Source: Acholeplasmataceae bacterium (GTDB lineage Bacteria > Bacillota > Negativicutes > Acidaminococcales > Acidaminococcaceae). Taken from it: DNA of 57,430 bases. Below are positions 2,232 to 46,935 of this stretch, in pieces. Position 1 is the first letter of the stretch; every line of letters begins with the position of its first letter. Location of the stretch: the NCBI GenBank assembly GCA_012517145.1, contig JAAYVM010000016.1:1-57430 (forward strand), in the 5' to 3' direction. The position numbers and the translations under genes were made by a program. The notes under the pieces are model-generated. The model did no database searches, had not been told where the DNA came from, and saw only the letters and a program-made list of their open reading frames with translations.

Positions 2232-2575
2232 GACCTCCCGCAAATTATAGTCTTGTTTTGGGGCATAAAAAAACGCCCCTCTAAAAGGGACGATAAAATA
2301 TCGTGGTACCACCCAATTTGACGCAAAAACTCCAAAAAAAAAATACCACCGGCTCTGGGACGAACTTTCTGCCGTGGTACCACCCAATTTGGAATGCTTT
2401 TGCATCCACTCTCAACCCCTTAACGCGGGCAACGGCTCCACCTACTTATTTTCAGCTGGCAGCTCAGGAGGGAACTTCCTCTGTGTTTCGGCCACCGGTT
2501 TCCACCATCCCGGCTCTCTATGGACATCCACAAAAAGTACTTTACTCCGTCATCGCAATAACTATTTGAACTTAT
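2232..2575 (-). promoter_or_regulatory. T-box leader with duplicated antiterminator/terminator
   Basis: A tRNA-sensing leader. The Stem I region carries AGAGAGCCGGGATGGTGG and ends CCTCCTGAGC. The specifier is most likely TTC (2472-2474, Phe), by alignment with the TGG specifier of the trp leader in this same window; GTT one base away is the alternative. Two T-box sequences (GGGTGGTACCACG) follow, at about 2302-2314 and 2373-2385. Each has its own terminator: ACCACGGC with GCCGGTGGT before ten T residues, and CGTCCC with GGGGCG before seven T residues. Only the antiterminator/terminator part is doubled; there is one Stem I. Confidence 0.85.
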
Positions 2576-19918: not shown

Positions 19919-20344
19919 TTAAAAAGCCCAACTAAGTAATATATTTTCAAGTTCTTTTAAGGATTTTGCTCGCACTTTTGCTTTTAACTGGCACTCCCAA
20001 ATAATGAGAACACGCCATCCCTCACTTTCAAGTCTTGCAAAATTCTGTTTATCCCTAGCCGTATTCTTCTCAATCTTTTCTTTCCAGAATTCAGCATTAT
20101 TTTTAGGCCAAACAAAGTATTTACACCCTTCATGTTTATGCCAAAAGCAGCCATTAACAAAAATGCATATTTTATATTTTGGCAGTACAATATCCGGTTT
20201 TCCCGGAAGATTACTGACATTTTTTCTATATCGAAAACCTTTAGAGAATAAATATTTTCTTACTATCTCTTCCGGCTTTGTATCTTTCCCTTTTATTTGA
20301 GACATATTATAGCTTCGAGTCTCAGTATTATGAACATCAGTCAT
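19919..20344 (-). CDS. vsr: Very short patch repair (Vsr-type) endonuclease
   Basis: A 141-residue PD-(D/E)XK endonuclease. Vsr hallmarks: MSQIKGKDTKPE near the N-terminus, the catalytic Asp in GKPDIVLPKYKICIFVNGCFWH, the zinc ligands HKHEGC, and RLESEGWRVLIIWECQLK. Vsr enzymes nick T:G mismatches that arise when 5-methylcytosine deaminates, so they normally accompany a C5 methyltransferase; one lies at the head of this same operon (32678-33928). Alternatively it could act as a defence nuclease. It starts 18 bases after the EVE-like gene. Confidence 0.9.
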   Translation of the reverse strand: MTDVHNTETRSYNMSQIKGKDTKPEEIVRKYLFSKGFRYRKNVSNLPGKPDIVLPKYKICIFVNGCFWHKHEGCKYFVWPKNNAEFWKEKIEKNTARDKQNFARLESEGWRVLIIWECQLKAKVRAKSLKELENILLSWAF

Positions 20345-20362
20345 AACGCCATTCCTTCATTT

Positions 20363-20887
20363 TTAAATAATATCTGAAAGTTGTTTTGAGAGATTTGCAA
20401 TCTGCAATAAAGCTTCCTTATCATGTGACATGAAATAATTCTGAATTGCTTTTTTTAATTTGGCGTTCAGCTCATCAACAGCATCTCTATTGCCCGATCC
20501 TTGTAATATATATTTATATGCTTCCCCAGATAGACGGCGTATGGAGGACTGCCATGGAGGGTTCACGCTTTTCCGGATAGTATCATGTCCCAATTGCTCT
20601 ACGTAACCTTCATCAGGCAGATAAATTGGCACCTTCTTTTCAAATTTGACCACATCCAAAAGCTCCGCATAATAGTTATCGTCGTCTACCTGCTCGATTT
20701 TCCCAATTCTTCCGGATCCAAAATAATATCTCTGTGACCGGTCATATCTATTTCCCTGATAATAGACAAATACATCTCCGGAATGAATCTGATTACGGTA
20801 TCTCCCCGGATAATGATATGTTTTAAAAAGCTTATCACCTTCATAGGTAGATATAGTGTCAATTTTTTGAGAAAGAACGATAAACAT
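20363..20887 (-). CDS. EVE/ASCH-like domain protein of the defence operon
   Basis: A 174-residue protein. The N-terminal half (GRYRNQIHSGDVFVYYQGNRYDRSQRYYFGSGRIG) resembles the EVE-like module found at the N-terminus of some HNH and McrBC-type enzymes, which binds modified bases. The C-terminal half is helical, without a nuclease motif. GGGGGG lies a few bases before the ATG. I infer a reader of modified DNA or a specificity factor working with the Dcm-type methyltransferase or Vsr; that role is not shown by sequence. It could also be a truncated nuclease. Confidence 0.6.
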   Translation of the reverse strand: MFIVLSQKIDTISTYEGDKLFKTYHYPGRYRNQIHSGDVFVYYQGNRYDRSQRYYFGSGRIGKIEQVDDDNYYAELLDVVKFEKKVPIYLPDEGYVEQLGHDTIRKSVNPPWQSSIRRLSGEAYKYILQGSGNRDAVDELNAKLKKAIQNYFMSHDKEALLQIANLSKQLSDII

Positions 20888-20913
20888 GATATCCCCCCCG
20901 ACAATTTTTCTTA

Positions 20914-20948
20914 GCCACTGCCTGCAAATATTCTTTGCAGGCAGTGGC
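20914..20948. repeat. Perfect 15-bp inverted repeat inside the defence operon
   Basis: GCCACTGCCTGCAAA and its exact complement TTTGCAGGCAGTGGC flank a 5-base loop. On the coding (minus) strand no T run follows (TAAGAAAAATTG), while the plus strand has TTCTTGTTT. It lies between drmB and the EVE-like gene, about 27 bases before the latter's ribosome site. Confidence 0.85.
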
Positions 20949-21000
20949 TTCTTGTTTGACTTTTACATCAGAATTTCTTCATCTTCGTTGTTCAGTTATA

Positions 21001-22848
21001 TCATAAATTTCGAATTTCCTTAAAAAACCCAATATTCAGATCTGATAAAGTTCCAACTACAACTCCTCTATCAAGTAATCTGTTTCCATTCTCACAACAA
21101 GTTTCAGGTAAAAGTGCACAGTTATGGCATGAAGCCAAATTGAGAGATTCAGGTCCCTGACCACTTGACTGGATGCAAATCGGATCCGATGTGCACCATG
21201 AAGCATTCTCGACGGCACTAATAATAGTGTCTTCCAGTCGTCCTTTTTCACCTTGTCGCACTAATCCTCCCAATGAACCTTCAGAATCACCGGATGCTGT
21301 ATAAATTAAAAGTCCGTACATCCCGAGATTGTTTGTTGTCTTTTCACAGTATATGCGTTCTCTGATAGAAGAGCTGCCATACCCACAGTCAAAACTCAAT
21401 TGATTTATAATCAAATGTGCAAATGTGTGAATAAGAACAAATTCCGGGCGCAACTCTCCCTGCGTTTTTTGACCAAATTTTGATTTTTGATACGCAAGAT
21501 TTAACGCATCCATTCGCCTCTGTACAGAAGAGGAATTCTGGGCCCATTCCTCCAACTGTTCACCATCAAATTCAAAGAATATTCCCTCACCAAATACTTC
21601 GATAGCAGGCAACCAATCCTCTAACGAGCCAAGACGTAATTCTTTTTTTCGTTCAGTGATAGTCTTTTCATTAGGTTCCAGTCTTGAAAAACCGACAAAA
21701 GCTCTCGTTTCGCGCAGTTTAGGGACTAATGAAATACTTTTAAAGTACTTATGAAGAATAGGATTATATTCTGTGATTGGATGATTTACAGAATGGAAAT
21801 CCATAGCATCGCTTCCGCTGTTCTTACACAATACTTTGTATTCCTGTAATCTATACTCATCTTCAGAAGTATTCTCATTAACCTCATCATTAGTTTGTAG
21901 GTTGTTTGCTCGGTCTACAAATGCCTGATACAATTCATCTGCGTTTACTCCTGCTTGGACAGCGAGCATATTAACCCAATCCCGGTTAAACTGACCATTT
22001 GTCTTTGATGCGTTCATCTGATGAAACCACTGATTAAGAACTCCAATGATTTTTCTACGTGTAGCAATATCGTCAACCGGAATGGAAATTGAACTTCTCG
22101 TGTCAGCAAACCATACATTTGTGGCACCTCTCAGTACAACCTTCAAATCCTCTGTTTTTGCATGACAAGGTTCCTCCCCTGAAACACCCAGCCAAGGTTT
22201 TGTTGCTTTACAGCGATAGCTAATCTTATCCAGTGAGCCTTTCTTTGTTGCACCTGCCATTGAGCGTTTTGCACCACAAGTACATTGATAGAATACACCC
22301 GTAAGATTTGCAGACGCACCACCCGTGCTTCTTCTGATTTTACAGGTATTAGGATCATAAGTATGACCGCTATTATGATTAACCCACTCTGCAACAGGGA
22401 AATCATCAATATGTCCTTCCGGACAAATCACAATAAAACGCTCCGAGATCATTTTTTTTCTGTATTTTCCTGTTGCCGAACACTTTCTTCCTTCAGACCA
22501 TTGGATCGCATCACACATTGGCTGCGTCTCGTAATAAGTAGTCTGTTTCATCTGTCCACAAAATGGGCAATAGTACCAAGTTGGAAATCTGACCGCTGGA
22601 ATTCTCAAATGGCAATTTTGAGGATCTGCGTTATTTTCACGAAAGTCAGGAGGCCATCTCAATTCACTGACTCCCAAACGTTTGGTTAAACGGTCATCCT
22701 TTATTATAAAAGGCTTTGGATCATTGTATCTCCATGCATCCAATCCCGCAATCATTAATGATTCATCGTTAGGAAAAGGAACAATTGCCCCAACTCCCCA
22801 GGGACCAATTAATGCACTTCTTCTAATTGGCCGTTTTGAAAATGCCAT
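21001..22848 (-). CDS. drmB: DISARM protein DrmB (DUF1998)
   Basis: A 615-residue protein. Features of DrmB: the N-terminal RRSALIGPWGVGAIVPFP and LDAWRYND segments, several cysteine clusters likely to bind zinc (YYCPFCGQ, CTCGAKRS, YRCKAT..., and the C-terminal CHNCALLPETCCENGN), and the DUF1998 part with LIHTFAHLIINQLSFDCGYGSSSIRERIY and GLLIYTASGDSEGSLGGL. In DISARM, DrmA and DrmB form the core complex that loads on incoming DNA with free ends. It follows drmA with a 1-base gap. Confidence 0.88.
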   Translation of the reverse strand: MAFSKRPIRRSALIGPWGVGAIVPFPNDESLMIAGLDAWRYNDPKPFIIKDDRLTKRLGVSELRWPPDFRENNADPQNCHLRIPAVRFPTWYYCPFCGQMKQTTYYETQPMCDAIQWSEGRKCSATGKYRKKMISERFIVICPEGHIDDFPVAEWVNHNSGHTYDPNTCKIRRSTGGASANLTGVFYQCTCGAKRSMAGATKKGSLDKISYRCKATKPWLGVSGEEPCHAKTEDLKVVLRGATNVWFADTRSSISIPVDDIATRRKIIGVLNQWFHQMNASKTNGQFNRDWVNMLAVQAGVNADELYQAFVDRANNLQTNDEVNENTSEDEYRLQEYKVLCKNSGSDAMDFHSVNHPITEYNPILHKYFKSISLVPKLRETRAFVGFSRLEPNEKTITERKKELRLGSLEDWLPAIEVFGEGIFFEFDGEQLEEWAQNSSSVQRRMDALNLAYQKSKFGQKTQGELRPEFVLIHTFAHLIINQLSFDCGYGSSSIRERIYCEKTTNNLGMYGLLIYTASGDSEGSLGGLVRQGEKGRLEDTIISAVENASWCTSDPICIQSSGQGPESLNLASCHNCALLPETCCENGNRLLDRGVVVGTLSDLNIGFFKEIRNL

Positions 22849-22849
22849 A

Positions 22850-25800
22850 TTAGTCCTCCTTCACAGTATAATCTCTAAGCATTGGATCGGCTTCACATGA
22901 TGCATCCACGCTTCGCATCGATGTAGGTGTTTCAAATCCATGTTTGCTCCAAGCTTCATTAGGATGATCTCCGGCGCTGTACATAAGCGGAACATCGTCA
23001 GTGAAAGACCAGTCTCTGTTCCGTTTAGGATCCCATAATGCCGGATGCCATGCCTTCCAGTCACTGAGTATTTCTTCATATAGTTTCAAAGTATCATTCA
23101 GTTCTTCCGGGTCAACTGCTGCAATTCTATCCCTAATGACTTGTTCAACATGATTCAAAACTAACTGTGGCGGGATATTTGGGGGTGCTTCATTGTATGC
23201 ATCGTCACTTACTAGTCTCATCATGCCTATCATAATTGCATGTAAAGCACGCTCTCTGACTGGTGCAGAGAATGGAGTAACACTTGTTGGTTCTACGCTG
23301 CAATAGAGTCGAGAATGATATTCTTTAAAATGCTCATAATGAGATTTATCTCTGGGGCGCCCCGGACGATATAAAACAAACACAATACCAGGAGCATCTC
23401 CTGAATTTCGTCCTACACGTGAGGTTGCCTGTATGTATTCAGAAGTAGTCTTTGGCTGACCGGCAACAGTCATAAGTCCAAGTCTTGGAACATCCAAACC
23501 AACAGAAATCATATTGGTTGCGAGGCATACATCAATAGGATATTCATCCGTGTGAATGTCATGATAGTCTTTCCCTTCATAAGCAATATTTAGGTTTGCA
23601 AGACTTGCCGTGACCTTATCTCCCGGAATTCGGCTGGTAAGTTCCTCTTCTCTCCAAATATACCTCCTTCGCTTATGATACTCTTCGCGCTCATACACCT
23701 TGTCATACTGTCTTCTCTTATACATAACATCAAGATGTTGATCTATATCTGCGCGGATCCATGTTCTTGCCTGACCAAGTTCACGAATACTATTAAAATA
23801 TCCAACATTAGTCCAATACGGATCGCGTCTGTCCTCTGATTCCACTTGTAACTCTTTTGCCGCATATAAAAGAGATGCAAATAATCGGATAGATGTCGTT
23901 GCATCAGACGAAGAACCAGTAGCCAAAACACCAACATATTTTCGTCCATTTTGCTTATTATCTTCTTTTGCAAAGAATGAATCTCCGGCATCTAAGCCTG
24001 AAGGTGGGAACTGAAATACATTTTCTTTTGAACATCCATAAAGAGCATGGCATTGTTCTTTTGCTCGGCTAATAGTAGCTGTAGACGCAATGATTTTAGG
24101 ATGAAGTTTCTTTCCGTCCACATCTAAAGTGCACAACTCATTAATCATTGTTTCATAATGTCCCACCATCGAACCAAGCGGACCTGAAATCAAATGCAAC
24201 TCGTCCTGTATAATCAAGTCTGGAGACGTAATTTTCACGCCATTATAATATCCGAACAATTTCTGTGCTTGCGGGCGGAAAGGGAGCATAGCAAATTTAT
24301 CTACTGTGCCCAGCAAAAGTGTAGGTGTAGCATCGTAAACAGCTTCATCTACTACATACAACGGAAGAGGGTTGTCTTTATCTGAGAAGTCGCAAAGTGG
24401 ATTTGAACATTTAAAGATGATACTTTTCTTTTTTCGTGCTTCCGATTTTTTATAATAACCTTTAATTTCCCTGGCTCCGTTTTTTTTCTGGATAGGTCCC
24501 ATTTGAGCACCACACCAAGGGCACTTTAAAATGACAAAAGGGTTCTCGCTCTCTCTCTTGCATAATTCATCGTATTTTGTAACTGCTTCCGTCATTTTAT
24601 TAGGAGTAGTCGCAACTCCAACCCACAATCCGATTGTTATTCTGGGCTTTCCAAATAAATCTTCATGTTGCTTACGAACAATATCGCATGCACAAATCAT
24701 TGACGAAGCTCGTTCATACTGTTGTGCTGTGAGCAATCGTAAAGTATAACGCATCAAAATGGCGGTTCCAGAATCATCCTTATTCATTAACCGCCTAATA
24801 AAAATAGTAAAAGCCGACAGTCCAAGATAAGCTTCTGTCTTGCCACCGCCAGTAGGGAACCAAATTAAATCAACAATATCTCTCTCTGTACAATCCCTCT
24901 TGAGCATAGACTGGAGGTTCATAAGAACAAAAGCTAACTGGAAAGGACGCCACTTCCCATATCTGTTCTTATTTCCATACCATGTCTCTGAATTATAGGG
25001 ATCAGGTAGCTGTAATAATATATTATCAAGATGTAAATTTCCACCGCTGTCCTCCTCCCACTTTTGAAGAGGAAGATTGTAATGCAGCTGCTGCATAAGC
25101 ATGACAAGATTCATATATTGGAAAGCTATTCGCACATTAATGTTATTTTCCAATAAAGAAATACCATCACGCATACGATTTAGGCACTTTCTGCAGTTCT
25201 CAAGGTGTCTTTCTGCAGTTTTTTCTAAATCTGTTCTTGAGTATTTTTTATTGAGACCCGCTGCTTCCAATTCCCTATTTTCAATCCATTCCTCGTATTT
25301 ATCGCACATCAAGTACAATTCTTGGATATTCTTGCTAAAATCGCCATTAGGTCCATATTTCAGCATTTCAAGAGTCACACCATCAATATTTGCCGGAACA
25401 ATAGGTTTAACTTCATATGTGGGAAAAGTAGCCGTCTGAATCCATGTAACTCTATCAGAGTTGTCTTCCCAATCTGCCGCGCAACCATGTCCAATCACAT
25501 AATTGCGCACATCACGATACAACAACTTATTAGATAAGTAATCTTCATCCTGTGCATTTATTCGCTGAGTATCAGGCAATGGGCAAAAACCTTTTTCTGA
25601 TTTCAAACAAAACTTAACCTGAAAATAACATTCGTCATCTTTGAATGCTGCAGGTCGAACAATAGAATTTTCCAGTGTAAATGTATAAATAGAATAATTG
25701 TCTTTTCTATATCTATAGGTAATATCAAATTTTAGATTAGTGTCACCAACAGGCATCTTGTTAATTCCTGCTACCGTTGTTGGAAGCAGGATATTTGTCC

Positions 25801-26287
25801 CATCGTTATCCCATAATATAGCGGTTCGTAAATATTTGGACATACTTTTTCCTGTTTTGGAGTCAGTCATCGAAAGTGATGTATATTGACCGGCTGATAC
25901 TTCAGCATGTATGTTGTCATCGTCACTTATAGCCACCGTAATGCTAATTGCGGACTGTCTGTATGCATTTGATCTGTTAATCAGTTCTTCAGCATCTTCC
26001 AGATACTCACTCGTTGTTTTTAAGACCGGGGCGGAATTTTCTTCTGAAATTCTCTCCTCTGTTGTCTGTGCTTCTTCATCAAGTTCATCTTCAGCAAGGG
26101 CTGAAGTTTCTTCTTCAGGCAGCTCTTGTGGGTACAATATCCCTGCAATATATCTTGTTCTTGGCGGATCACTTACCAGTATTTCCTGTCCATTTGACTG
26201 CTTATACCCTTCCCAGTCTATTGGATCCGGACCAATAAACTCTCTTTCGACCAGTTCTAATAGTTGTTCTCTTCGATTATCTGCCAT
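22850..26287 (-). CDS. drmA: DISARM helicase DrmA
   Basis: A superfamily 2 helicase of 1145 residues. Helicase motifs: Walker A in WFPTGGGKTEAYLGL (about 490-505), Walker B variant IIQDELHLISGPLGS, SAT-like IASTATISRA, and C-terminal lobe motifs ATNMISVGLDVPRLGLM and YIQATSRVGRN. A CPWCGAQM/CSNPLC cysteine pair lies between the motifs. The N-terminal third (EFIGPDPIDWEGYKQSNGQEIL...) matches the DrmA type rather than the longer DruE. It overlaps the upstream NERD-helicase gene by 11 bases. DrmA supplies translocation and DNA gating in the DISARM core complex. Confidence 0.9.
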   Translation of the reverse strand: MADNRREQLLELVEREFIGPDPIDWEGYKQSNGQEILVSDPPRTRYIAGILYPQELPEEETSALAEDELDEEAQTTEERISEENSAPVLKTTSEYLEDAEELINRSNAYRQSAISITVAISDDDNIHAEVSAGQYTSLSMTDSKTGKSMSKYLRTAILWDNDGTNILLPTTVAGINKMPVGDTNLKFDITYRYRKDNYSIYTFTLENSIVRPAAFKDDECYFQVKFCLKSEKGFCPLPDTQRINAQDEDYLSNKLLYRDVRNYVIGHGCAADWEDNSDRVTWIQTATFPTYEVKPIVPANIDGVTLEMLKYGPNGDFSKNIQELYLMCDKYEEWIENRELEAAGLNKKYSRTDLEKTAERHLENCRKCLNRMRDGISLLENNINVRIAFQYMNLVMLMQQLHYNLPLQKWEEDSGGNLHLDNILLQLPDPYNSETWYGNKNRYGKWRPFQLAFVLMNLQSMLKRDCTERDIVDLIWFPTGGGKTEAYLGLSAFTIFIRRLMNKDDSGTAILMRYTLRLLTAQQYERASSMICACDIVRKQHEDLFGKPRITIGLWVGVATTPNKMTEAVTKYDELCKRESENPFVILKCPWCGAQMGPIQKKNGAREIKGYYKKSEARKKKSIIFKCSNPLCDFSDKDNPLPLYVVDEAVYDATPTLLLGTVDKFAMLPFRPQAQKLFGYYNGVKITSPDLIIQDELHLISGPLGSMVGHYETMINELCTLDVDGKKLHPKIIASTATISRAKEQCHALYGCSKENVFQFPPSGLDAGDSFFAKEDNKQNGRKYVGVLATGSSSDATTSIRLFASLLYAAKELQVESEDRRDPYWTNVGYFNSIRELGQARTWIRADIDQHLDVMYKRRQYDKVYEREEYHKRRRYIWREEELTSRIPGDKVTASLANLNIAYEGKDYHDIHTDEYPIDVCLATNMISVGLDVPRLGLMTVAGQPKTTSEYIQATSRVGRNSGDAPGIVFVLYRPGRPRDKSHYEHFKEYHSRLYCSVEPTSVTPFSAPVRERALHAIMIGMMRLVSDDAYNEAPPNIPPQLVLNHVEQVIRDRIAAVDPEELNDTLKLYEEILSDWKAWHPALWDPKRNRDWSFTDDVPLMYSAGDHPNEAWSKHGFETPTSMRSVDASCEADPMLRDYTVKED

Positions 26288-28025
26288 TTGCTAATCTCCT
26301 TTTAAAGAACAATTGAGTTCGCTCATCAGAAGCTGCCTGAGTTTCAAATATGTGTAAGTCGAACCTTGCCCTGCTAAGCCCCACATAAATCAGTTTTTCA
26401 TTTTCATAACTTTCAATATCTGTAATAATAACTGTTGAGCTTTCTAAGCCTTTGTACCCTTGTATAGTGGAAAACGTTATGTTTCCAGCTTCTTTAACCG
26501 AGTAATTTTTTACGACTATTCCATCAAGCAGACTGACTACAGAATCAGCTCGTTTTCGAGGTGACAAAACAACTATGTCTTTCCGACTAATGTTTTTACT
26601 GAGCAAATCATTTATTAATTCAACCAATCGATCCTTCTGGTCGTTCATGTCGGAATAAATTATATGATCAACCGATGGTGTGTTAATCTGGTCTTCAAAA
26701 GCTGCATTTTCCGGAATTCCAACAATATTCTCAATATCAATGCAGATTTTTTTTGTATTGCGGCAATTCTTCTTTAATTTGAATAATGCAAAAGAAGACC
26801 ATTTCTCAATTTTTTCAATATAGTCGAATTCAGTCATATCATTGGAATATATGGATTGCATCGAGAAATCTCCAAACATTATCCATTTCCCGTCAGATAA
26901 TTCTTGATATATGCAATGATTCATCACCTGCATATATGTATCTGTTATCAAGTCCTGCGCCTCGTCAATTATAATTCTGTCATATCTTAATGGAAACTCA
27001 GACAAGGATTTTATGACCATATCCGGAAGCTTTTTATTGTAAAACTCTTGGTCTATGTATGCGTCGGTTGGAACTTCTATTATCTGTCCTCTTGATTTCA
27101 GGAGTCTTATCATATAACTATGGAATGTTCCAACATATGCGGGCCTCAAGGTATTGGGTATTGATGAAAAATAATCTTCCAGCCACTCTCCGAGAGCTTT
27201 GTTAAAGCAGAATAACGCTACTTTTTCACCCTTGGCTGCTGCACGCTTTGCCGCTTCAATTGCAAGTAATGTTTTTCCAGTTCCTGCTGTTCCACGGATC
27301 AAACATTTTGAATTATCATCCAACTGTTCTATGCACAAAGCCTGCTCATTTGTTAAAGACAATAAATCTGCTTCTGTATACTTTTGCTTAATACGAAGAG
27401 GTACATCCTGATCAAAATCTCCCCTAAGCAAATCAGCAAGATACATAACATCTTCACTCGTAGGAAATGATGTTTCAGTAACACCATAATTTAGTCTGCA
27501 TCTTGTGTTTAATGCTCCCTGAGCAATTCTTTCAATAAATCCACAAACGTCTTTCCCGTCGCTAATATCAAACACCTGCCATGGTTCTTCATCAACACCT
27601 ACAGACAGGTAGTCAATGTCCGGGAACATCACCCCAATGCCAAACATTACATGTTTTAAATGCTGATGTTTAGCATCTAATTTAGTCTCAATTGAGGTTC
27701 GGATGCTATAAATACCCTCCCAAGCTTGATCAAAAGGTCCCCTTACTTTTTGATCAATATTCCCATATTTGTTTATATAAGACCATTTTCCAAGTTCTCT
27801 CTTAACACGGCCTCCTTTTACTTCAAGAGCAAATATACCTTTGCCTGGTATGAGAGCAAGAAAATCCGTTTCTCCATGAATTACCTTACAGTGATTAGAG
27901 ATCCCCAATGAATGCAAAACTATCCAATTATCTGTATCAGTAGCATCCTTAAACCATTCAAAGATACGTTTTTCAGCATTGCTTTTTATATCAGGTGAAA
28001 TCGCCGAAGGTAACATAAGAGCCAT
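26277..28025 (-). CDS. NERD nuclease domain fused to a UvrD-like helicase
   Basis: A 582-residue protein. Residues about 15-130 look like a NERD (nuclease-related) domain: HGETDFLALIPGKGIFALEVKGG has the Asp and Glu-x-Lys catalytic pattern. A superfamily 1 helicase follows, with Walker A RGTAGTGKTLLAIEAAK (about 245-261), Walker B RIIIDEAQD, a KLKKNCRNT motif, TFSTIQGYKGLE and the motif VI-like LIYVGLSRARFDLHI. It sits where class 2 DISARM operons may carry the PLD protein DrmC, and could be a substitute nuclease/helicase. It starts 9 bases after the DrmE-like gene. Confidence 0.85.
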   Translation of the reverse strand: MALMLPSAISPDIKSNAEKRIFEWFKDATDTDNWIVLHSLGISNHCKVIHGETDFLALIPGKGIFALEVKGGRVKRELGKWSYINKYGNIDQKVRGPFDQAWEGIYSIRTSIETKLDAKHQHLKHVMFGIGVMFPDIDYLSVGVDEEPWQVFDISDGKDVCGFIERIAQGALNTRCRLNYGVTETSFPTSEDVMYLADLLRGDFDQDVPLRIKQKYTEADLLSLTNEQALCIEQLDDNSKCLIRGTAGTGKTLLAIEAAKRAAAKGEKVALFCFNKALGEWLEDYFSSIPNTLRPAYVGTFHSYMIRLLKSRGQIIEVPTDAYIDQEFYNKKLPDMVIKSLSEFPLRYDRIIIDEAQDLITDTYMQVMNHCIYQELSDGKWIMFGDFSMQSIYSNDMTEFDYIEKIEKWSSFALFKLKKNCRNTKKICIDIENIVGIPENAAFEDQINTPSVDHIIYSDMNDQKDRLVELINDLLSKNISRKDIVVLSPRKRADSVVSLLDGIVVKNYSVKEAGNITFSTIQGYKGLESSTVIITDIESYENEKLIYVGLSRARFDLHIFETQAASDERTQLFFKRRLANGR

Positions 28026-28034
28026 AATTTTTCC

Positions 28035-30611
28035 TCATTCCTCTATTAAACGATTGGTATCAGCAGAACTAATCTCAATTTCAGAACCAATATCAATAAT
28101 TTTGAGAACCTTAACATTTCCTATTCCGTCGACATCTATGTTGATTGGTTCCCAGAAATTGAAAGGATCAATTTCTCCATATTTTTTTAACTCAGCAGCG
28201 AGAGTTTCCTTTAACTGGTGAGATAATTTTCTTCCTGCTAACACATGTGCTTTTCGCACTTCTTGAGCAGCATCAAATATTTTATCAAGTAATTCAAGAA
28301 GCATTTCATTCTGTGTGACTTCTGCAATTAATTGCAAATCGCTTTTGGAATGAGGGGAAATTGCATCCTCATCCTCAATCCAACGCCTGACTGTATGTAA
28401 TCCCTTATCACAGCCAGCATTTTTCAGCTTTTCATAGAAATCTTCTACCGTTGTGAACAGTAGCTCTATTTCCAAAGCTTCTCTCCACTTGGTTGCGAGC
28501 TCTCGCATTTCAATTTTTCCACTATTTGAAAGTGCCACATCAGCTATTTCTTTAATTAAGTCTTTATCTGCTTCACGAACGACAATAAAATCACCTGTCT
28601 GTAATTCATATGGCAATTTGCTTTCAATCTTTTCGGAGTCAGCAAGTATGATCTTTGTGACAGATATGACTTTATGGCCAATACGATAAAATGCCAAGTA
28701 CCCACCAACAAAACTAATCGGAATAGCAGAAACCAATTCACTTCCAGAATGTATTCCTCCATTAACATACTGGCGGAATTTATTCTCCCGGAGAACCAAT
28801 TCTATTTCACCCAATTCATCCGAGTTGTCTTCTGTTTTAGCTGCCGGTGTAGTTTTTTCATATTTAATTGTCGAAACCTCAAGAAGATCAGAACTAAATG
28901 ATTTTTCAATTATTCTTTTATTTCCAGTATTATCCAGGGCTTTCGTCCATTTTCTCGCATCATAATTTTTCCATCGGTTCTCATATTCGTACAACATAAC
29001 AATATATTGACTAGTGTTGTAGCTAAAAATAATCTTGCGCATAATTGCACGTTTCATCCATCCACAAATAATTGTTGTATCCACATCAGTAGTTGATACT
29101 GCATAATATTCCGAAGGAAGTATTACTATGATCTTTGTTTTAACAAAATGTTGCAGGCACCAATTTGTCCAAAAATTTTGAATTCGTGGTTTTGATGCTT
29201 TCTCGGGAACAACCAAATATACTTTAGGGATATTATGTTCTTGCAGATATCTTTTTATTACTTCCACTTTTTGCAGAATATACTTTGCTGAATATATCTT
29301 TTTTAATACAGTAATAGCATTAGCATAATCCATATATGTCACTTTATCGATATATGAACATTCTTTTTGAAGAATAGCATCGCATTCTGTAAGTGTTTGT
29401 TGGGCCAAATTAAGTTCCACATCGAAGAAAGGTACGGTCGCACGCAATGCAGCAAATGTCAGAGAATTGAGCTTTTCAAATAACTTCATCAATTGTATAG
29501 ACTGCGTTTCTATTTCTTTTCTGTACTTTGCCAAGGATTGCATCACATCACTGATCTCATCTCCAGTGATTTTTAGATATTGCACGTTTTGCTTGGCACA
29601 ATTTCTTATTTTCTGGTCAGAGGATAGTGGTGTTGTTCCATAAAGTTGGTCCGTGATACTATCACTGTCCCATCTCCATATGTTAAAACCTCTTATTGAT
29701 AATTGTTCAAGTTCGAATGAATTTACTACGTCCGTAATACATACAACAGGAACCTCAAGATTAAGCAGTCCATCCAATGCATCTAACTGATTTAACCATC
29801 CAGCATTGGAGCCATCAATGATAATTGACTGGATAGGCTTGTGATTTTCAGCAGCTTCATTAATTGAGTATAAATCTGAAGCAAAGACAATTGCAGGTAT
29901 ACCTGCCAATTGGCCAGGGCCAATATTACTGATATTGCCTTTATAGTCACACTGTCCAACAAAGAAAATATCAGTAACCTTCTTGCCACATATTCGACAA
30001 GTGGATACCTGCTCCTTCGCTCCTGCAACAGAAGTCATCGCAAAAATAGAGCTGTCCATATGTGTTTTCATTTTTGCTACATTGATTAGATAAGCATGAG
30101 TATTTTTTGTTGAAAGATCAATTCCTTTACTTGCCAGTTCTTTGGCTTCAAAATATTGCTTATATTTGCTCAATCGCCTATTAGTATTTGCTTTCTGAAA
30201 AATTGGTAAATACTTCATAGGTGCACTGCTGATGCAATCAGCTAACTTAATAATAATACATTGATTACCTTCTCTAATTTCCGCACCAAGATACTCAACT
30301 ACAGCATTGCCAACTTTTAAGCGTTCTCCGACTGAAAAGTTAGTGGGATTATAGTTGCTTTTTATCTTGCCGGAGTATATGTTGTGAAAAAGCATCATCA
30401 ATATAAAAATTGAGATTGATTGATTATCAGGAAAAACCACCACGTTACGTTTGCCCTGTTTCTCAATCATTTTTTCAAGCATTATAACACTTGCTTTGAC
30501 AATAGGAGGAATACTAGAAGTCGAGCAACTATTTTCAAGAGAAAAAGTTAAACTTTCAAATTCTTTATCAGCAGAAAGAAGATTAGCTAAATAATCATTC
30601 CATTCAATCAT
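28035..30611 (-). CDS. drmE: DISARM class 2 protein DrmE-like
   Basis: An 858-residue protein without catalytic motifs that I can name. Its size, position between the methyltransferase and drmA, and the C-terminal helical region (TVRRWIEDEDAISPHSKSDL, then VRKAHVLAGRKLSHQLKETL) agree with DrmE, the class-defining protein of DISARM class 2. A CRIC...C cysteine set near residue 205 may bind zinc. The middle part has Rossmann-like stretches (KVYLVVPEKASKPRIQNF, KTKIIVILPSEYY), as in inactive helicase-like folds. The name rests on recognition of the C-terminus plus context. Confidence 0.62.
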   Translation of the reverse strand: MIEWNDYLANLLSADKEFESLTFSLENSCSTSSIPPIVKASVIMLEKMIEKQGKRNVVVFPDNQSISIFILMMLFHNIYSGKIKSNYNPTNFSVGERLKVGNAVVEYLGAEIREGNQCIIIKLADCISSAPMKYLPIFQKANTNRRLSKYKQYFEAKELASKGIDLSTKNTHAYLINVAKMKTHMDSSIFAMTSVAGAKEQVSTCRICGKKVTDIFFVGQCDYKGNISNIGPGQLAGIPAIVFASDLYSINEAAENHKPIQSIIIDGSNAGWLNQLDALDGLLNLEVPVVCITDVVNSFELEQLSIRGFNIWRWDSDSITDQLYGTTPLSSDQKIRNCAKQNVQYLKITGDEISDVMQSLAKYRKEIETQSIQLMKLFEKLNSLTFAALRATVPFFDVELNLAQQTLTECDAILQKECSYIDKVTYMDYANAITVLKKIYSAKYILQKVEVIKRYLQEHNIPKVYLVVPEKASKPRIQNFWTNWCLQHFVKTKIIVILPSEYYAVSTTDVDTTIICGWMKRAIMRKIIFSYNTSQYIVMLYEYENRWKNYDARKWTKALDNTGNKRIIEKSFSSDLLEVSTIKYEKTTPAAKTEDNSDELGEIELVLRENKFRQYVNGGIHSGSELVSAIPISFVGGYLAFYRIGHKVISVTKIILADSEKIESKLPYELQTGDFIVVREADKDLIKEIADVALSNSGKIEMRELATKWREALEIELLFTTVEDFYEKLKNAGCDKGLHTVRRWIEDEDAISPHSKSDLQLIAEVTQNEMLLELLDKIFDAAQEVRKAHVLAGRKLSHQLKETLAAELKKYGEIDPFNFWEPINIDVDGIGNVKVLKIIDIGSEIEISSADTNRLIEE

Positions 30612-30634
30612 TGCAAGGTCCTCCCTAACTCTTC

Positions 30635-32674
30635 TTATTCAGAAACAAATCCCTTGTCCTCTGCCTTTTTTAATGCTTTCAATGCTTGTATAGACTGTTT
30701 TATGCTGGGTTTACGCCCCCGTCCAGCTAAGGATCCGACGGAGAAAAGCATACTTCTAAGCCACGGTTGGAAATTATTGGTTTCCTTAGCCCATCGAGAA
30801 AGTGCAAACCATTTCTCTGCAGGAACAGCCGCTGCCTCATCAATAATCTTCTGCTCTTCATCAGTGAGTGAGTCAATGCTACTCTTTGGAACAGGCTTAG
30901 ATGAAGTGTAGCCAGCAGCAACCAACTCGCTTTCGAGTTCGGCAGATACTGAATAGGCATGATCTCTAATGCTTGTCCAGCATTTTTCCTTTTTACACCA
31001 TTCTCCTACATTTGCTCCACCAAGAGGATTTGTTATTTCTGCATGAACAAATTGAGAAACCTGTACTATTTCGTTCTCAAGTGTAGTAGTTAAGCCCTGT
31101 TCCTTCCATATGCGATCCAGATCAATTCGCTGAGCAGTTTTGTATGAAAGGAATGCAAGAGTATATGTAACGATATTGGCACGATATCCGCCATACTGTT
31201 GCTGTTGAACCAGTTTTTCTGTTCTTCTGAACAAAATAGCTTTAGCGACAAGATTTTGGTAATACTTCTCATCTGGCAATGCCATGCTTCGTTCGCTTAG
31301 TCTTAATGTGAATCTGCGGAAGTTTTTCTGCGCACCTTCGCTAACATGATAAGGTAACTGATCCCAAGTGTTTTCGTATTTTGCCAGATCTGTTTTTGTA
31401 AAAACAGGATGTGTTTCTTTGAACTGTTTTCTTCGCAAAGCGGTGGTCTCTCTCGAAAGCATGTCTGCATACTGTCCGCGAGCTCTTTCATAAAACCAGT
31501 TCATCGGTTTCATGCCACCTTGAGCGGGTGCCCATATTGTACGCGAGAGTTCTTCAATTCTTCTATGATATGGATCATTGGCCGAGAAATCCGCAACTTG
31601 AACTTTATTCTGAGTATTCGCAAATGCAGAAATCCTCGGAACAATTTCATCCATATTATCCGGTGAGGTAATAACCGATAATTTCATCTGAACGAATACT
31701 TTTGATAGATCAGCAGCAACTTTTCTATCTTTATTTGCATTAAAAATGGAGGCTGTTGTTTGTCCGCCGTTTACAATTTGCATATCTCTGACTCGTTTGA
31801 TGGAAGATTTTCCATTTTCATCACCAACAATCTCTACGCTTTCAGCAGTAACAGAAATTCCATTGTTGTATGCCAAAAACATATCTGGTTCATCGCGCAA
31901 TGTATCACGAATACCTTTATTTACGGCACCTTTGACTTGCAGGAACGATCTGACGTTTTTTTCAAGCAATCGATCGCGATATTCATCATATAGGGCAGCC
32001 AATAATTCACCACTTACAATGGCTAAGTAAACACTGCACTTATCGCTAGTGCTATTTTCTATACACGGTATGGTAAACCCGAATTTATCACTAAAGTCAA
32101 TTTCTATTGTCTCACGCATTTTTCCAGAAGTGACACAACGATAAAGACGATCAATATCCCAAATCACAAAAGATATTTCAGCACCACCTACGGTAATGTT
32201 TTTAAAAGGGATTGGTTTCACCAAGCCATTAGTCAATGCGCATATACGAACTGTTTTTATTTGCTCTTTTTGCTTATTAACTGTAATTGCAAACTCATAA
32301 GTATCATTATCTTTTTCAAATGATGTGTACAAATCATTAATTGCTTTCTGATACAACTGAATTGTTCTTTTAATGGCCGCATCTATCTCTGTTTGCGAAA
32401 CAGATTTTGGAGACTCATTGTCAGAATACAGCCCCACAAAAATATCTAAGCTAGAATAATCATCAGCAATTGCATATGCATTAAGTTGCAGTCCATGACT
32501 TCTAAAAGGACACATAATGGGATCTGTTACTTCACCAGCTTCTTCAAGATATTCCAACATAACGTTTGTAAAGAAATCTTCTGTAGTCCATCCACTGGTA
32601 TCCATATCAGCGGACATCAGAATTTCTTCTCTGAAATCCTTATAAAACTCATCTATTGATTTATCATTTGCCAT
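30635..32674 (-). CDS. AIPR-family (abortive infection phage resistance) protein
   Basis: A 679-residue protein with the AIPR domain at about 210-560: FLQVKGAVNKGIRDTLRDE, MFLAYNNGISVTAE, QIVNGGQTTASIFNA and ISAFANTQNKVQVADF are its signature segments. AIPR proteins occur in abortive infection and in restriction-like gene clusters with Dcm and Vsr; their biochemical role is not settled. It begins 3 bases after the methyltransferase stop codon and so is presumably co-translated with it. Not part of the canonical DISARM gene set. Confidence 0.9.
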   Translation of the reverse strand: MANDKSIDEFYKDFREEILMSADMDTSGWTTEDFFTNVMLEYLEEAGEVTDPIMCPFRSHGLQLNAYAIADDYSSLDIFVGLYSDNESPKSVSQTEIDAAIKRTIQLYQKAINDLYTSFEKDNDTYEFAITVNKQKEQIKTVRICALTNGLVKPIPFKNITVGGAEISFVIWDIDRLYRCVTSGKMRETIEIDFSDKFGFTIPCIENSTSDKCSVYLAIVSGELLAALYDEYRDRLLEKNVRSFLQVKGAVNKGIRDTLRDEPDMFLAYNNGISVTAESVEIVGDENGKSSIKRVRDMQIVNGGQTTASIFNANKDRKVAADLSKVFVQMKLSVITSPDNMDEIVPRISAFANTQNKVQVADFSANDPYHRRIEELSRTIWAPAQGGMKPMNWFYERARGQYADMLSRETTALRRKQFKETHPVFTKTDLAKYENTWDQLPYHVSEGAQKNFRRFTLRLSERSMALPDEKYYQNLVAKAILFRRTEKLVQQQQYGGYRANIVTYTLAFLSYKTAQRIDLDRIWKEQGLTTTLENEIVQVSQFVHAEITNPLGGANVGEWCKKEKCWTSIRDHAYSVSAELESELVAAGYTSSKPVPKSSIDSLTDEEQKIIDEAAAVPAEKWFALSRWAKETNNFQPWLRSMLFSVGSLAGRGRKPSIKQSIQALKALKKAEDKGFVSE

Positions 32675-32677
32675 CTG

Positions 32678-33928
32678 CTACTCCTCCTCGAACTGGTTCA
32701 AAAGTGCCTCGGCAATAGTTCTTGCTAAAAGTGGCGGTACTGCATTGCCTATTTGTCTAAATGCGGCAGTTCGTGAGCCTTCAAAATAGAAATTATCCGG
32801 AAAAGATTGAATTCTGGCGGCTTCTCTAACGGTTATTGATCTCGCCTGCTTGATATCAGGATGTATGTAATAATGACCATCCTTTGAAATGTGAGCCACC
32901 ATAGTATGTGATGCAGGCAAATCTCCGGCAACAACTTTAAACCGATCCAAGAAGCTTGTTCTGTTATTATGCGTAGTAAGTTCTTCTGGCAAATCAGTAT
33001 ATTTTAAACGCTTATGTCCATCATTCCATGCTTCAATAGCTTTACGATAAACTTCTCTGTCCCTGTCGAGATTGCTGCGTGCAACATGCCAAGTCAAAAT
33101 ATCGTTTTTTGAGCGAATGCCGGTATCATGAAGATATTCATTTATTGCGTGCGTAGTGTATTCATCTGATGACGCCCGAGGTTCTACAGGAGGTAAATCG
33201 TTTAATATATCGGACACAGAGTATGCTTTCTCAATTTTTCGAAGGTTAGGATACCTATGCCCGCTTCCATTTTTCCATCCAATCAATATAATGCGCTTTC
33301 TGTTTTGAAGTACACCATAATCAGAGGCATTCAAAATATGATAGTCTAGTTCATACCCACGATCTCTAAAGCCGGAAGTAATTGCTTCAAGATATGATCC
33401 TCCACCTGCAGTAAATAATCCCGGAACATTTTCAAAGACAAACATAGATGGTCGATAACGTTCAATTGCCTTAAAATACAATTTATACAGAGTATTTCTT
33501 GGATCATTATCCATGCACTTTCTTGATCTTCCAGCAACAGAATAAGCTTGGCAAGGTGGCCCCCCTAAAATAATGTCTACATGATCAGCATTTCGTCTTT
33601 TAATTGCTTCATCAATTTTTTGGAAAATTGATGGCATAGAATCATCGCCCATTTTTTCACAAATCACAGAATTCAAAATGCTTTCTGGAATCATTTGATA
33701 CAATTGCGATCTATCTATAGACCCTTTCAGATAATCTATGTAATTATAATTTGCTCCTAATGAATGTAAATAGTAATAGCTCTCTCGAGTTTTTAATGTA
33801 TTACATGCTTCAGCATCCATTTCAACGTGGGCAATTGGTTGATATCCAACAGCAGCAAATCCTTCGGATAAACCACCTGCACCGGCGAACAAGTCCAAAT
33901 ATGTAATTTTATTTTTAATACTAGGCAT
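32678..33928 (-). CDS. drmMII: C5-cytosine DNA methyltransferase (DrmMII type)
   Basis: A 416-residue enzyme with the full C5 motif set: motif I DLFAGAGGLSEGF (about 12-24), motif IV GGPPCQAYSVAGR with catalytic Cys126, motif VI FVFENVPG, motif VIII QNRKRIILIGW and motif X QIGNAVPP near the C-terminus. In class 2 DISARM the host is marked by a C5 methylase of this type so that the system ignores self DNA. The target sequence cannot be read from the protein. It is the first enzyme gene after the XRE regulator. Confidence 0.93.
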   Translation of the reverse strand: MPSIKNKITYLDLFAGAGGLSEGFAAVGYQPIAHVEMDAEACNTLKTRESYYYLHSLGANYNYIDYLKGSIDRSQLYQMIPESILNSVICEKMGDDSMPSIFQKIDEAIKRRNADHVDIILGGPPCQAYSVAGRSRKCMDNDPRNTLYKLYFKAIERYRPSMFVFENVPGLFTAGGGSYLEAITSGFRDRGYELDYHILNASDYGVLQNRKRIILIGWKNGSGHRYPNLRKIEKAYSVSDILNDLPPVEPRASSDEYTTHAINEYLHDTGIRSKNDILTWHVARSNLDRDREVYRKAIEAWNDGHKRLKYTDLPEELTTHNNRTSFLDRFKVVAGDLPASHTMVAHISKDGHYYIHPDIKQARSITVREAARIQSFPDNFYFEGSRTAAFRQIGNAVPPLLARTIAEALLNQFEEE

Positions 33929-34552: not shown

Positions 34553-34756
34553 TTACTTTATTATGCATCTGTAAATTTCAAGTTCCTCAGTCAATTCTCT
34601 TTTAGGCGCCTCAGTTGGCGATTCACCTGGTTCGATTTTGCCGCCAGGAAATTCGAATTTAAAAGAAATATAATCGTATTTTGCTTGGTTTCTTTGCATA
34701 CACAAAATTTCATCATCACAAATGACAATACCAGCAACAACCTCTAGTTCTTTCAT
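34553..34756 (-). pseudogene. Truncated MutT/Nudix hydrolase
   Basis: The 67-residue frame starts like an 8-oxo-dGTP diphosphatase (ELEVVAGIVICDDEILCMQRN) and has the whole Nudix box (GGKIEPGESPTEAPKRELTEEL), but stops 8 residues after it, so the second half of the usual 130-residue fold is missing. Downstream, to about 34380, other frames give short peptide-like runs (AEWIASLQIDPDKEIDPN, DGEAFEDFSEGYES) broken by stops. I read this as a decayed gene next to the island edge. Confidence 0.6.
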
Positions 34757-34880
34757 TTTAACCTCGTCATTATTTACATTTTGCCTTCATTATACAACCA
34801 CTGGCATTACTTAACAAATTAATATTAGGTTAAATTGCCCCATCAACGAAACACCATATAAAATAAAGCGCACAAAAACA
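34757..34880. other. AT-rich spacer without a recognisable gene
   Basis: Between the Nudix remnant and the structured RNA candidate I see no open frame with a ribosome site, only AT-rich sequence that includes the T-rich tail of the terminator at 34883-34918 (read on the minus strand). Confidence 0.5.
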
Positions 34881-35432
34881 AAGCGAGGGCAGAATCTTTT
34901 ACGATTCTGCCCTCTTTCGATATGACCACATCCGTGCGATCCTTAACAACCTTTACAGTCTTACGACCACCTCACGTTTTAATAGCGTGGTCACATCACC
35001 GACACCCTCTGCGATTGCATCTGCCTTAGATTGCGGACTCTCTCTTTACTCTTGGTAATTCAAAAAATTACTTCGAATACCTAGAGAATTTACAAATCTT
35101 TGAGCCCCTTTCCGTTAGTTTTCATATGACCTTGGACTTGCGTTCACCAAATCGATCTTTGACCGTTTCGAAGCACTTAAGTTGTACTAATCACTGAAAA
35201 GTTTACCGATGGGTTTTGCCAAGCAACTGCGGACTACTATTTACCTCTCACCAATCTCTCGACCGTTTTACGAAGTATCCAGAGACCACATCTTGACAGG
35301 CTCTCGCTAGGTGTTGTCGTTAATTTATAAAGGGCCTTGCGGCCCTTTGTACATGTAAGTGTGAGCACTCTTCCATCTTGCCTCTCGGTTTGATTTCCGA
35401 ACCCACAACTTATTCATGTATAGCCTCTTTAT
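34870..35432 (-). ncRNA. Candidate large structured RNA (about 550 nt), ROOL-like in size and setting
   Basis: No gene is readable here, but the minus strand has a promoter (35439-35467), a terminator (34883-34918) and dense base-pairing between. Examples: GATGTGACCAC (34986-34996) pairs over 11 positions with GTGGTCATATC (34919-34929); GCAATCT/AGATGC; GTAATT/AATTAC; GGGCCGCAAGGCCC near the 5' end; TCGG/CCGA. The motif AGTCCGCA occurs twice. It matches none of RNase P, tmRNA, 6S or SRP RNA. Length, bacterial group and place beside a mobile or defence island resemble ROOL or GOLLD RNAs, but I cannot confirm a family. Confidence 0.6.
34883..34918 (-). terminator. Strong intrinsic terminator of the structured RNA
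   Basis: On the minus strand GAGGGCAGAATC pairs perfectly with GATTCTGCCCTC around a 6-base loop, followed by GCTTTGTTTTTGTG. Confidence 0.85.
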
Positions 35433-35438
35433 GGTTTT

Positions 35439-35467
35439 ATTATAAACGAAAACCATTACAAATGCAA
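35439..35467 (-). promoter_or_regulatory. Sigma-70 promoter of the structured RNA
   Basis: TTGCAT at 35462-35467, 17-base spacer, perfect TATAAT at 35439-35444 on the minus strand. Predicted start near 35432. Confidence 0.75.
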
Positions 35468-35667
35468 TATGATTTTGCGAAATATTGTGACAATTATGTG
35501 ATTTTCCAGTATTGTTTAAGCGCAAACAGTAACTGTAACTTTTGTTATGCAGTAATTATCCCTTTGCAGGAGACGTTTGGTTTTTTTGTTTTGCCGTATA
35601 TTTATCTAATGAATTCCTTCAAAAAGTGTAAATTCCATATGATTAATTTACTATCGCTAACTCGAAA

Positions 35668-35766: not shown

Positions 35767-35898
35767 ATGTCTGAAAAGAACAACGAAAATAATTGCCAAT
35801 GCAGCTCCCAAAACAAATGCTGGGGCAGGAAAATCCTCCCCTATTTAGCAGCTTTCTTCATCATAATGCTGCTGATAGAAATATTTGGCAACAAATAA
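35767..35898 (+). CDS. Small single-pass membrane protein
   Basis: A 43-residue protein: a polar, cysteine-containing N-terminus (CQCSSQNKCW) then one hydrophobic helix (ILPYLAAFFIIMLLIEIF). AAAGGAGGT lies 7 bases before the ATG, an optimal site, and a strong terminator follows, so it is a real gene unit. No family is recognised. The three N-terminal cysteines could bind a metal or be lipidated, but neither is shown. Confidence 0.7.
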   Translation: MSEKNNENNCQCSSQNKCWGRKILPYLAAFFIIMLLIEIFGNK

Positions 35899-38398: not shown

Positions 38399-39061
38399 GT
38401 GAAAATTTTAATGGGGATATTAAAGAAGACTCCTTTGTTCAGAAATATGGAGGAAGACGAAATTAATTCAGCCCTTAGTTTTCTTGCTGCCAGACAAACT
38501 GCCTATGAAAAAAATTCCTTCATTTTTTCTTTAGAAGACGGTACACCTACCGTGGGCATCATCCTTGCCGGCAGCGTAGTCATCATTAAGGAAGACTTCT
38601 GGGGTAACCGCTCTATGCTTGCCAAACTTGGTGTCGGCGATATTTTTGGTGAAGCCTTCACCTGTGCCCAGACAGAAAAAATGCCGGTTGGTGTCTTAGC
38701 GAGCGAAAAATGCGAGATATTATTCATTGATTACAAACGCATTCTTGTTGATACAGGTGTAGCTTGTACTTCCTATAACAAACTTATTCAGAATATGATG
38801 TTGATTCTTGCAGGCAAAAATGTGATGCTCACGCAAAAGATTGAACATCTTATGAAACGTTCAACCCGCGAAAAACTGCTTTCTTTTTTATCCGCACAAG
38901 CCATAGAAGCTAAAAGCCATGTTTTCGATATACCACTCAGCCGCCAGGAGCTGGCTGATTATCTGGCTGTTGACAGCAGTGCCATGTCCAATGAATTAAG
39001 CAAACTGCAGCAGGAAGGCTTATTGGCATTCACTCGCAACCATTTCGAATTAAGAACCTGA
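38399..39061 (+). CDS. Crp/Fnr-family regulator (HcpR-like by context)
   Basis: A 220-residue regulator: an N-terminal cyclic-nucleotide-like sensor barrel (about 10-125, including GIILAGSVVIIKEDFWGNRSMLAKLGVGDIFGE) and a C-terminal winged helix (about 150-215) with LSRQELADYLAVDSSAMSNELSKLQQEG as helix-turn-helix. There is no N-terminal Fnr-type cysteine cluster. Divergent from the ferredoxin-hcp pair, so a role in nitrosative stress like HcpR is likely. It starts with a GTG at 38399, after GGAG. Confidence 0.85.
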   Translation: MKILMGILKKTPLFRNMEEDEINSALSFLAARQTAYEKNSFIFSLEDGTPTVGIILAGSVVIIKEDFWGNRSMLAKLGVGDIFGEAFTCAQTEKMPVGVLASEKCEILFIDYKRILVDTGVACTSYNKLIQNMMLILAGKNVMLTQKIEHLMKRSTREKLLSFLSAQAIEAKSHVFDIPLSRQELADYLAVDSSAMSNELSKLQQEGLLAFTRNHFELRT

Positions 39062-46798: not shown

Positions 46799-46816
46799 TG
46801 TTTTCCTCCTCTTTCT

Positions 46817-46935
46817 AAGCCTACGAAGTTAGCTGACGGGTTAGGACAGAAAGAAGAATTTGCCCTTCCTAATAGGATTAACCCCAATAATGGTTCCCCC
46901 GTTTCCAAAAATGGAATTCGGCGTTTTATTATTTT
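46817..46935 (-). promoter_or_regulatory. c-di-AMP (ydaO/yuaA) riboswitch
   Basis: Minus-strand landmarks match the ydaO consensus: AACGCCGAATTCC, AAACGGGGGAACCATTATT, GGGGTTAATCC, and the 3' part AACCCGTCAGCTAACTTCG followed by TAGGC. The aptamer ends about 18 bases before the ATG of the DapB-like gene, and the AGAGGAGG ribosome site follows at once, so no room is left for a separate terminator. Control of translation, or a terminator overlapping the aptamer, is implied. Confidence 0.88.

Follow-up and report, generated by a model that had tools for sequence, protein, structure and literature searches.

The 57,430-nucleotide stretch of DNA analysed here (the window) encodes, on its minus strand beside hcp, a large RNA (copy A) that, judging from sequence comparison, is very probably a real and independent structured RNA whose family is not represented in Rfam. 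By sequence, copy A is one member of a new family of free-standing structured RNAs with two copies per genome. With clearly less confidence, we consider it probable that these copies form a co-regulated pair acting in trans as structural RNAs. The earlier note had proposed a large structured noncoding RNA at this place, with a new class as its alternative to a known one. Both proposals are supported by conserved signals, by compensatory changes, and by the existence of homologues and a paralogue.

The copy A transcript comprises approximately 548 nt (window positions 35432..34885, minus strand), with the putative start seven bases past the -10 box. The 600 bases previously described as free of genes indeed contained no evident gene on either strand (34870-35467). 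The promoter, read from the sequence (35439..35467, minus strand), consists of a -35 box TTGCAT (35467..35462), a 17-base spacer, and a -10 box TATAAT (35444..35439). The same boxes and spacing were found in the homologue in G022, a genome of another genus in the same family, and both paralogues carried TTGCAT or TTGATT, such that the spacing was conserved in all four copies. The promoter had been called clean; its boxes and spacing are real, but the word overstates the -35 box, which matches TTGACA at only three of six positions and was therefore absent from the list of a consensus promoter scan. The intrinsic terminator (34914..34885, minus strand) has the perfect 12-bp stem described before, approximately 518 bases downstream of the putative start, and an imperfect U-tract, GCUUUGUUUUUG. 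By these predicted signals, copy A is a free-standing RNA with its own promoter and terminator.

The dense pairing claimed for the minus strand was confirmed by folding. The predicted free energy of copy A was -181.6 kcal/mol, as compared with -138.2 ± 6.5 kcal/mol for 100 dinucleotide-shuffled sequences, none of which was as stable (z = -6.7), and the plus strand of the same region gave a z of -3.1. With the terminator removed, the z values were -4.6 for copy A in the window and -5.9 for that of G022, and those of the two B copies described below (-2.2 and -1.7) were modestly better than chance.

A search for homologues, which the earlier note had called for, yielded the G022 homologue of copy A and a diverged copy B in both genomes. 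The covariance model R1 (182 columns, covering the 3' part) was made from copy A alone, and its application to 380 genomes of the class at E ≤ 0.1 returned one further place in each RNA-bearing genome and nothing else: G000:C126:12030-12205 in the window genome (E = 1.0e-3) and G022:C129:15418-15594 (E = 3.7e-5), both E values being per genome. The copy B units are free-standing and share the layout of copy A, comprising a promoter with a 17-base spacer and TATAAT, the hairpin, ACGACAACACC, AGGGUGUCGGUGAUGUG approximately 300 bases further on, and a terminator. Copy B is 66% identical between the two genomes and approximately 53% identical to copy A. The family thus has four known members of approximately 460-550 nt in two genera, two per genome. 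Searches with models of both ends recovered two copies in each genome without a credible third, in assemblies that are fragmented (220 contigs for the window genome, G000, and approximately 210 for G022). A DNA search of the 380 class genomes, R1 and R2 searches over the class, and an R2 search over 398 genomes of the phylum added no convincing member to the four copies; where inspected, the other hits (E of approximately 2e-4 to 0.3) lacked the paired motifs or lay in evident coding sequence. Pattern searches of viral contigs returned nothing with both motifs and model support, and no relative was seen on a phage, plasmid, or viral contig. Among the matches listed in a broader contig scan, only L189 and L214 had the full motif pair and a strong R2 match, and these belong to a digester genome corresponding to G022. 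This distribution refers to the genomes searched, which were drawn from a collection covering about half of GTDB species.

All four family promoters are preceded by a direct repeat, TCACA-N6-TCACAAT(A/C)T, whose centre lies 59.5-60.5 bases upstream of the putative start. In copy A, it reads TCACA-TAATTG-TCACAATAT (35482..35501, minus strand). A genome-wide pattern search of both genomes placed the exact 20-base pattern only at the two RNA promoters of the window genome and at copy B of G022; the repeat of G022 copy A differs from it by one change. Elsewhere in both genomes, only matches with one or two mismatches occurred, in near-background numbers. Response regulators of the OmpR/PhoB type typically bind head-to-tail half-sites 11 bp apart. 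A DNA-binding regulator reading the head-to-tail sites, likewise 11 bp apart, would switch both RNAs on together. Further conserved bases lie upstream of the promoter at 35505-35560, including GTTACAGTTACT, a second short direct repeat, which is present in copy A only.

We examined the helices by comparing copies A and B. A hairpin with a GNRA loop, AAAGGGCCGCAAGGCCCUUU (35329..35348, minus strand, as are all elements in this paragraph), directly precedes the core. In the window genome, copy B retains this hairpin in compensated form, with a GAAA loop and two pairs changed on both sides; the G022 copy B has it with a register shift of one. The fold is closed by a long-range helix of ACGACAACACC (35310..35320), which is identical in all four copies, with GGGUGUCG; the CGACA/UGUCG pairing is invariant across A and B, its 3' strand lying in the invariant GGGUGUCGG (34999..35007). 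Within the fold, the covarying helix P3 has the 5' strand UGUGG (35286..35290; columns 69-73 of alignment A7) and pairs as UGUGG/CCGCA in A and as UGUGG/UCACG and CGCGG/CCGCG in B. Its 3' strand (35228-35232) forms part of the 7-nt loop of a candidate hairpin, AGUAG-UCCGCAG-UUGCU (35222..35238; A7 columns 125-141). Both P3 and the loop hairpin were paired in four of four copies, which makes this arrangement a candidate pseudoknot. The first stem of the 3' domain (35028..35099), whose ends AGAUU.UG pair with CGCAAUCU, showed covariation between A and B. A final hairpin (34919..34997) is closed by the 11-bp helix GAUGUGACCAC/GUGGUCAUAUC (34997-34987 with 34929-34919), paired in all four copies at the nine pairs counted. 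This is probably the 11-bp long-range helix with a G-U wobble that had been noticed from the sequence; the wobble itself is invariant across the four members, and double-sided changes affect two further pairs of the helix (A-U to G-C and C-G to U-A).

The covariation check that had been proposed found double-sided changes in the 11-bp helix and the outer 3'-domain stem, with P3 kept. In alignment A6 (helices of A and B), every cell was paired, and the covariation score exceeded those of all 500 shuffles and all slid controls; the score of alignment A7 exceeded those of 494 of 500 shuffles. Because only four sequences are available, two of them 94% identical, the covariation counts are small and phylogenetically non-independent, and they lend support to, rather than prove, a structure kept by compensatory change.

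By analogy with OLE, ROOL, and GOLLD (PMC12286853) and with the single-lineage Soda Lake RNA (PMC11109978), both RNAs would act in trans as a structural device, either a protein scaffold or an RNA-only assembly, and not as leaders of adjacent genes. Whether the device works as such a scaffold, ribonucleoprotein, or RNA assembly, rather than by base-pairing with messages or by catalysis, we regard as evenly balanced. The two RNAs might also be co-expressed subunits of one RNA machine, as a hetero-oligomer or through one common protein. In that arrangement, both would fold around the same invariant helix and candidate pseudoknot, and one dedicated regulator would switch both on; we hold this reading to be rather doubtful.

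A trans-acting regulatory sRNA that base-pairs with messages, its large fold serving stability or chaperone binding, is unlikely but shares several of the same features. Paralogous regulatory sRNAs are often co-regulated copies with their own promoter and intrinsic terminator, and here there is likewise a free-standing transcript with its own regulated-looking promoter, an intrinsic terminator, and two putatively co-regulated copies. Messages could equally be the pairing partners of the accessible conserved segments. However, conservation extends over the whole fold with no single short seed, most of the segments identical between A and B lie in helices, and 460-550 nt would be an unusual length. 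A pair of structural RNAs acting in trans is the reading that we prefer.

Next, we focused on the neighbouring genes. No conserved neighbour is shared by the A and B loci, and no protein partner was found. On one side of copy A, a MutT-like NUDIX gene (34575-34757, minus strand) is truncated after approximately 60 codons at the point where homology to G022 stops (34575) and the island side begins; the gene is intact in G022 and in G010, a further genome. An insertion that introduced the island side apparently caused this truncation. Beyond the break, a DISARM-like defence island (19919-33928) encodes DrmMII, an MzaE-like protein, a weakly DrmE-like protein, a NERD/UvrD helicase, DrmA, DrmB, and a Vsr nickase, an uncommon combination of DISARM and Mza-type components. 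In G022, the RNA is present, and the adjoining sequence read contains no such island. The earlier association of the RNA with the defence island is thus attributable to chance, as the island lies beyond the homology break and is absent beside the G022 RNA. On the other side lie a gene for a 43-residue peptide with a membrane segment, MSEKNNENNCQCSSQNKCWGRK... (35767-35898, plus strand), found at the same place in G010 and as a degraded trace in G022, and a CRP/FNR-type regulator near hcp (38399-39061, plus strand). Copy B adjoins a gene for a LonB-like AAA protease (L063 12426-14897), which occurs in only 2 of the 59 family genomes, precisely the RNA-bearing ones, and in 60 of 220 class genomes. 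LonB was considered as a functional partner and rejected, since no such RNA was present in the loci read in those 60 class genomes; its frequency in the class without the RNA makes it look like a retained ancestral gene.

The position of both copies on the strand of the next gene, with the terminator 130-180 bases before that gene, would suit a cis-acting leader, such as a riboswitch or attenuator of NUDIX (A) or LonB (B) with the terminator as the switch. This explanation appears quite improbable, and cis-regulation of NUDIX by copy A is disfavoured by sequence. A separate, conserved NUDIX promoter was read in three genomes: TTGTTA-17-TATAAT in the window and in G022, and a version with TTGTTT in G010, which has no RNA. 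In the window genome, NUDIX is truncated while the RNA is intact, and upstream copy A sequence has no segment of at least seven bases able to pair with the 5' arm of the terminator as an antiterminator. Moreover, the downstream genes of A and B are unrelated, and relatives of LonB in the class lack such an RNA in the loci read. Elsewhere in the window, Rfam models identified a c-di-AMP riboswitch (46804-46933, minus strand) and a T-box leader (2353-2562, minus strand).

The similarity of copy A between genera might instead reflect a recent exchange of DNA. In G022, the locus order hcp, RNA, NUDIX is the same and the RNA is 93.8% identical, as compared with 77% for hcp beside it (45% at third codon positions). 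An exchange would be consistent with the third positions of the adjoining 60 NUDIX codons, which are 68% identical, against 45% in hcp. In 50-base steps, however, identity was 86-100% only over the RNA, approximately 80% over the promoter and the 95 bases upstream, and approximately 40-50% beyond (42% between the NUDIX promoter and the NUDIX start, and approximately 50% upstream of 35561). Because intergenic identity drops just outside the unit, the conserved block corresponds to the RNA, its promoter, and approximately 95 bases upstream, a profile to be expected if the RNA unit is under constraint, and not if a longer tract had recently been exchanged. The differences also avoid paired columns: among 38 differing columns, 32 were unpaired in the two-sequence consensus, and the other six kept a standard pair, G-U included. 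As the consensus structure had been fitted to both sequences, we repeated the test with single-sequence structures, and the enrichment of unpaired differences held (p = 7e-5 and 6e-7), although 8 and 2 pairs, respectively, were broken. Exchange is therefore a very unlikely account. In G010, whose hcp protein is 86% identical, hcp, the small membrane-peptide gene, and NUDIX occur in the same order, but the peptide gene and NUDIX are separated by only approximately 190 bases that contain no RNA. This empty site indicates that the RNA is a separable cassette, gained or lost.

Comparison with known RNA families gave no identity for copy A. None of the 4227 Rfam families matched at its gathering score, and permissive filters (E up to 10) returned only chance-level matches to unrelated families. 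The recommended search with the ROOL, GOLLD, OLE, and HEARO models was likewise negative for copy A, and the suggestion that it was a ROOL- or GOLLD-type RNA failed on this point; in the same library, a positive control, ROOL at its place in the L. salivarius plasmid pMP118 (PMC5643018), scored 130.4 bits. That copy A is a diverged member of one of these four families is highly improbable. The similar size, complex long-range pairing, candidate pseudoknot, and lack of a protein partner of copy A speak for it (PMC12286853 for comparison), but no model matched at E ≤ 10 for A or E ≤ 1 for B, and no phage, plasmid, or tRNA context was seen. ROOL was also not found in 59 family genomes, in a search with no positive among its own controls.

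Among these families, ROOL (RF03087) resembles copy A in its length of approximately 500-650 nt, long-range pairing, pseudoknots (candidate here), free-standing character, and lack of a known protein; cryo-EM has shown it to form an octameric RNA nanocage. Copy A lies between chromosomal genes and lacks a match to the RF03087 model, whereas ROOL is associated with phages, prophages, and tRNA islands (PMC12286853). GOLLD is likewise a large, ornate RNA whose function is not established, but the new RNA is shorter, off phage, not near tRNAs in most loci read, and without a GOLLD match in Rfam, where ROOL was the only control. OLE is similar in length (approximately 600 nt), complex fold, and occurrence in anaerobic or extremophilic Gram-positive relatives, and provides a precedent for a large RNA in a ribonucleoprotein; the new RNA has no Rfam match to it, again with ROOL as the only control. 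HEARO differs in that its model did not match and in that the neighbours of copy A are hcp and a NUDIX remnant, not an IsrB/HNH-type ORF. By description only, the family can also be likened to the smtA motif or 'Soda Lake RNA' of Thioalkalivibrio, a structured RNA of >350 nt confined to one narrow lineage, with several covarying stems and no established function (PMC11109978). That RNA is one motif upstream of smtA, whereas the new family has two diverged copies per genome with a common control element and their own promoters and terminators. Finally, the least credible explanation is that copy A is what remains of an intron, an rRNA, or a protein gene: no point in its support was found, the intron or decayed rRNA match named in the earlier note as counter-evidence was looked for in Rfam and not found, and a short AUG frame near the 5' end, rejected as a peptide gene, is not conserved as protein in G022, where it has amino-acid substitutions and a premature stop.

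The known bacterial RNAs of such size and complexity are few, and these examples have proved remarkable, including RNA-only cages and membrane ribonucleoproteins. The presence of two diverged copies with a common, dedicated control element provides a natural internal comparison, in which the features common to A and B at approximately 53% identity point to the working core. The family further illustrates that Rfam lacks rare large RNAs limited to particular lineages.
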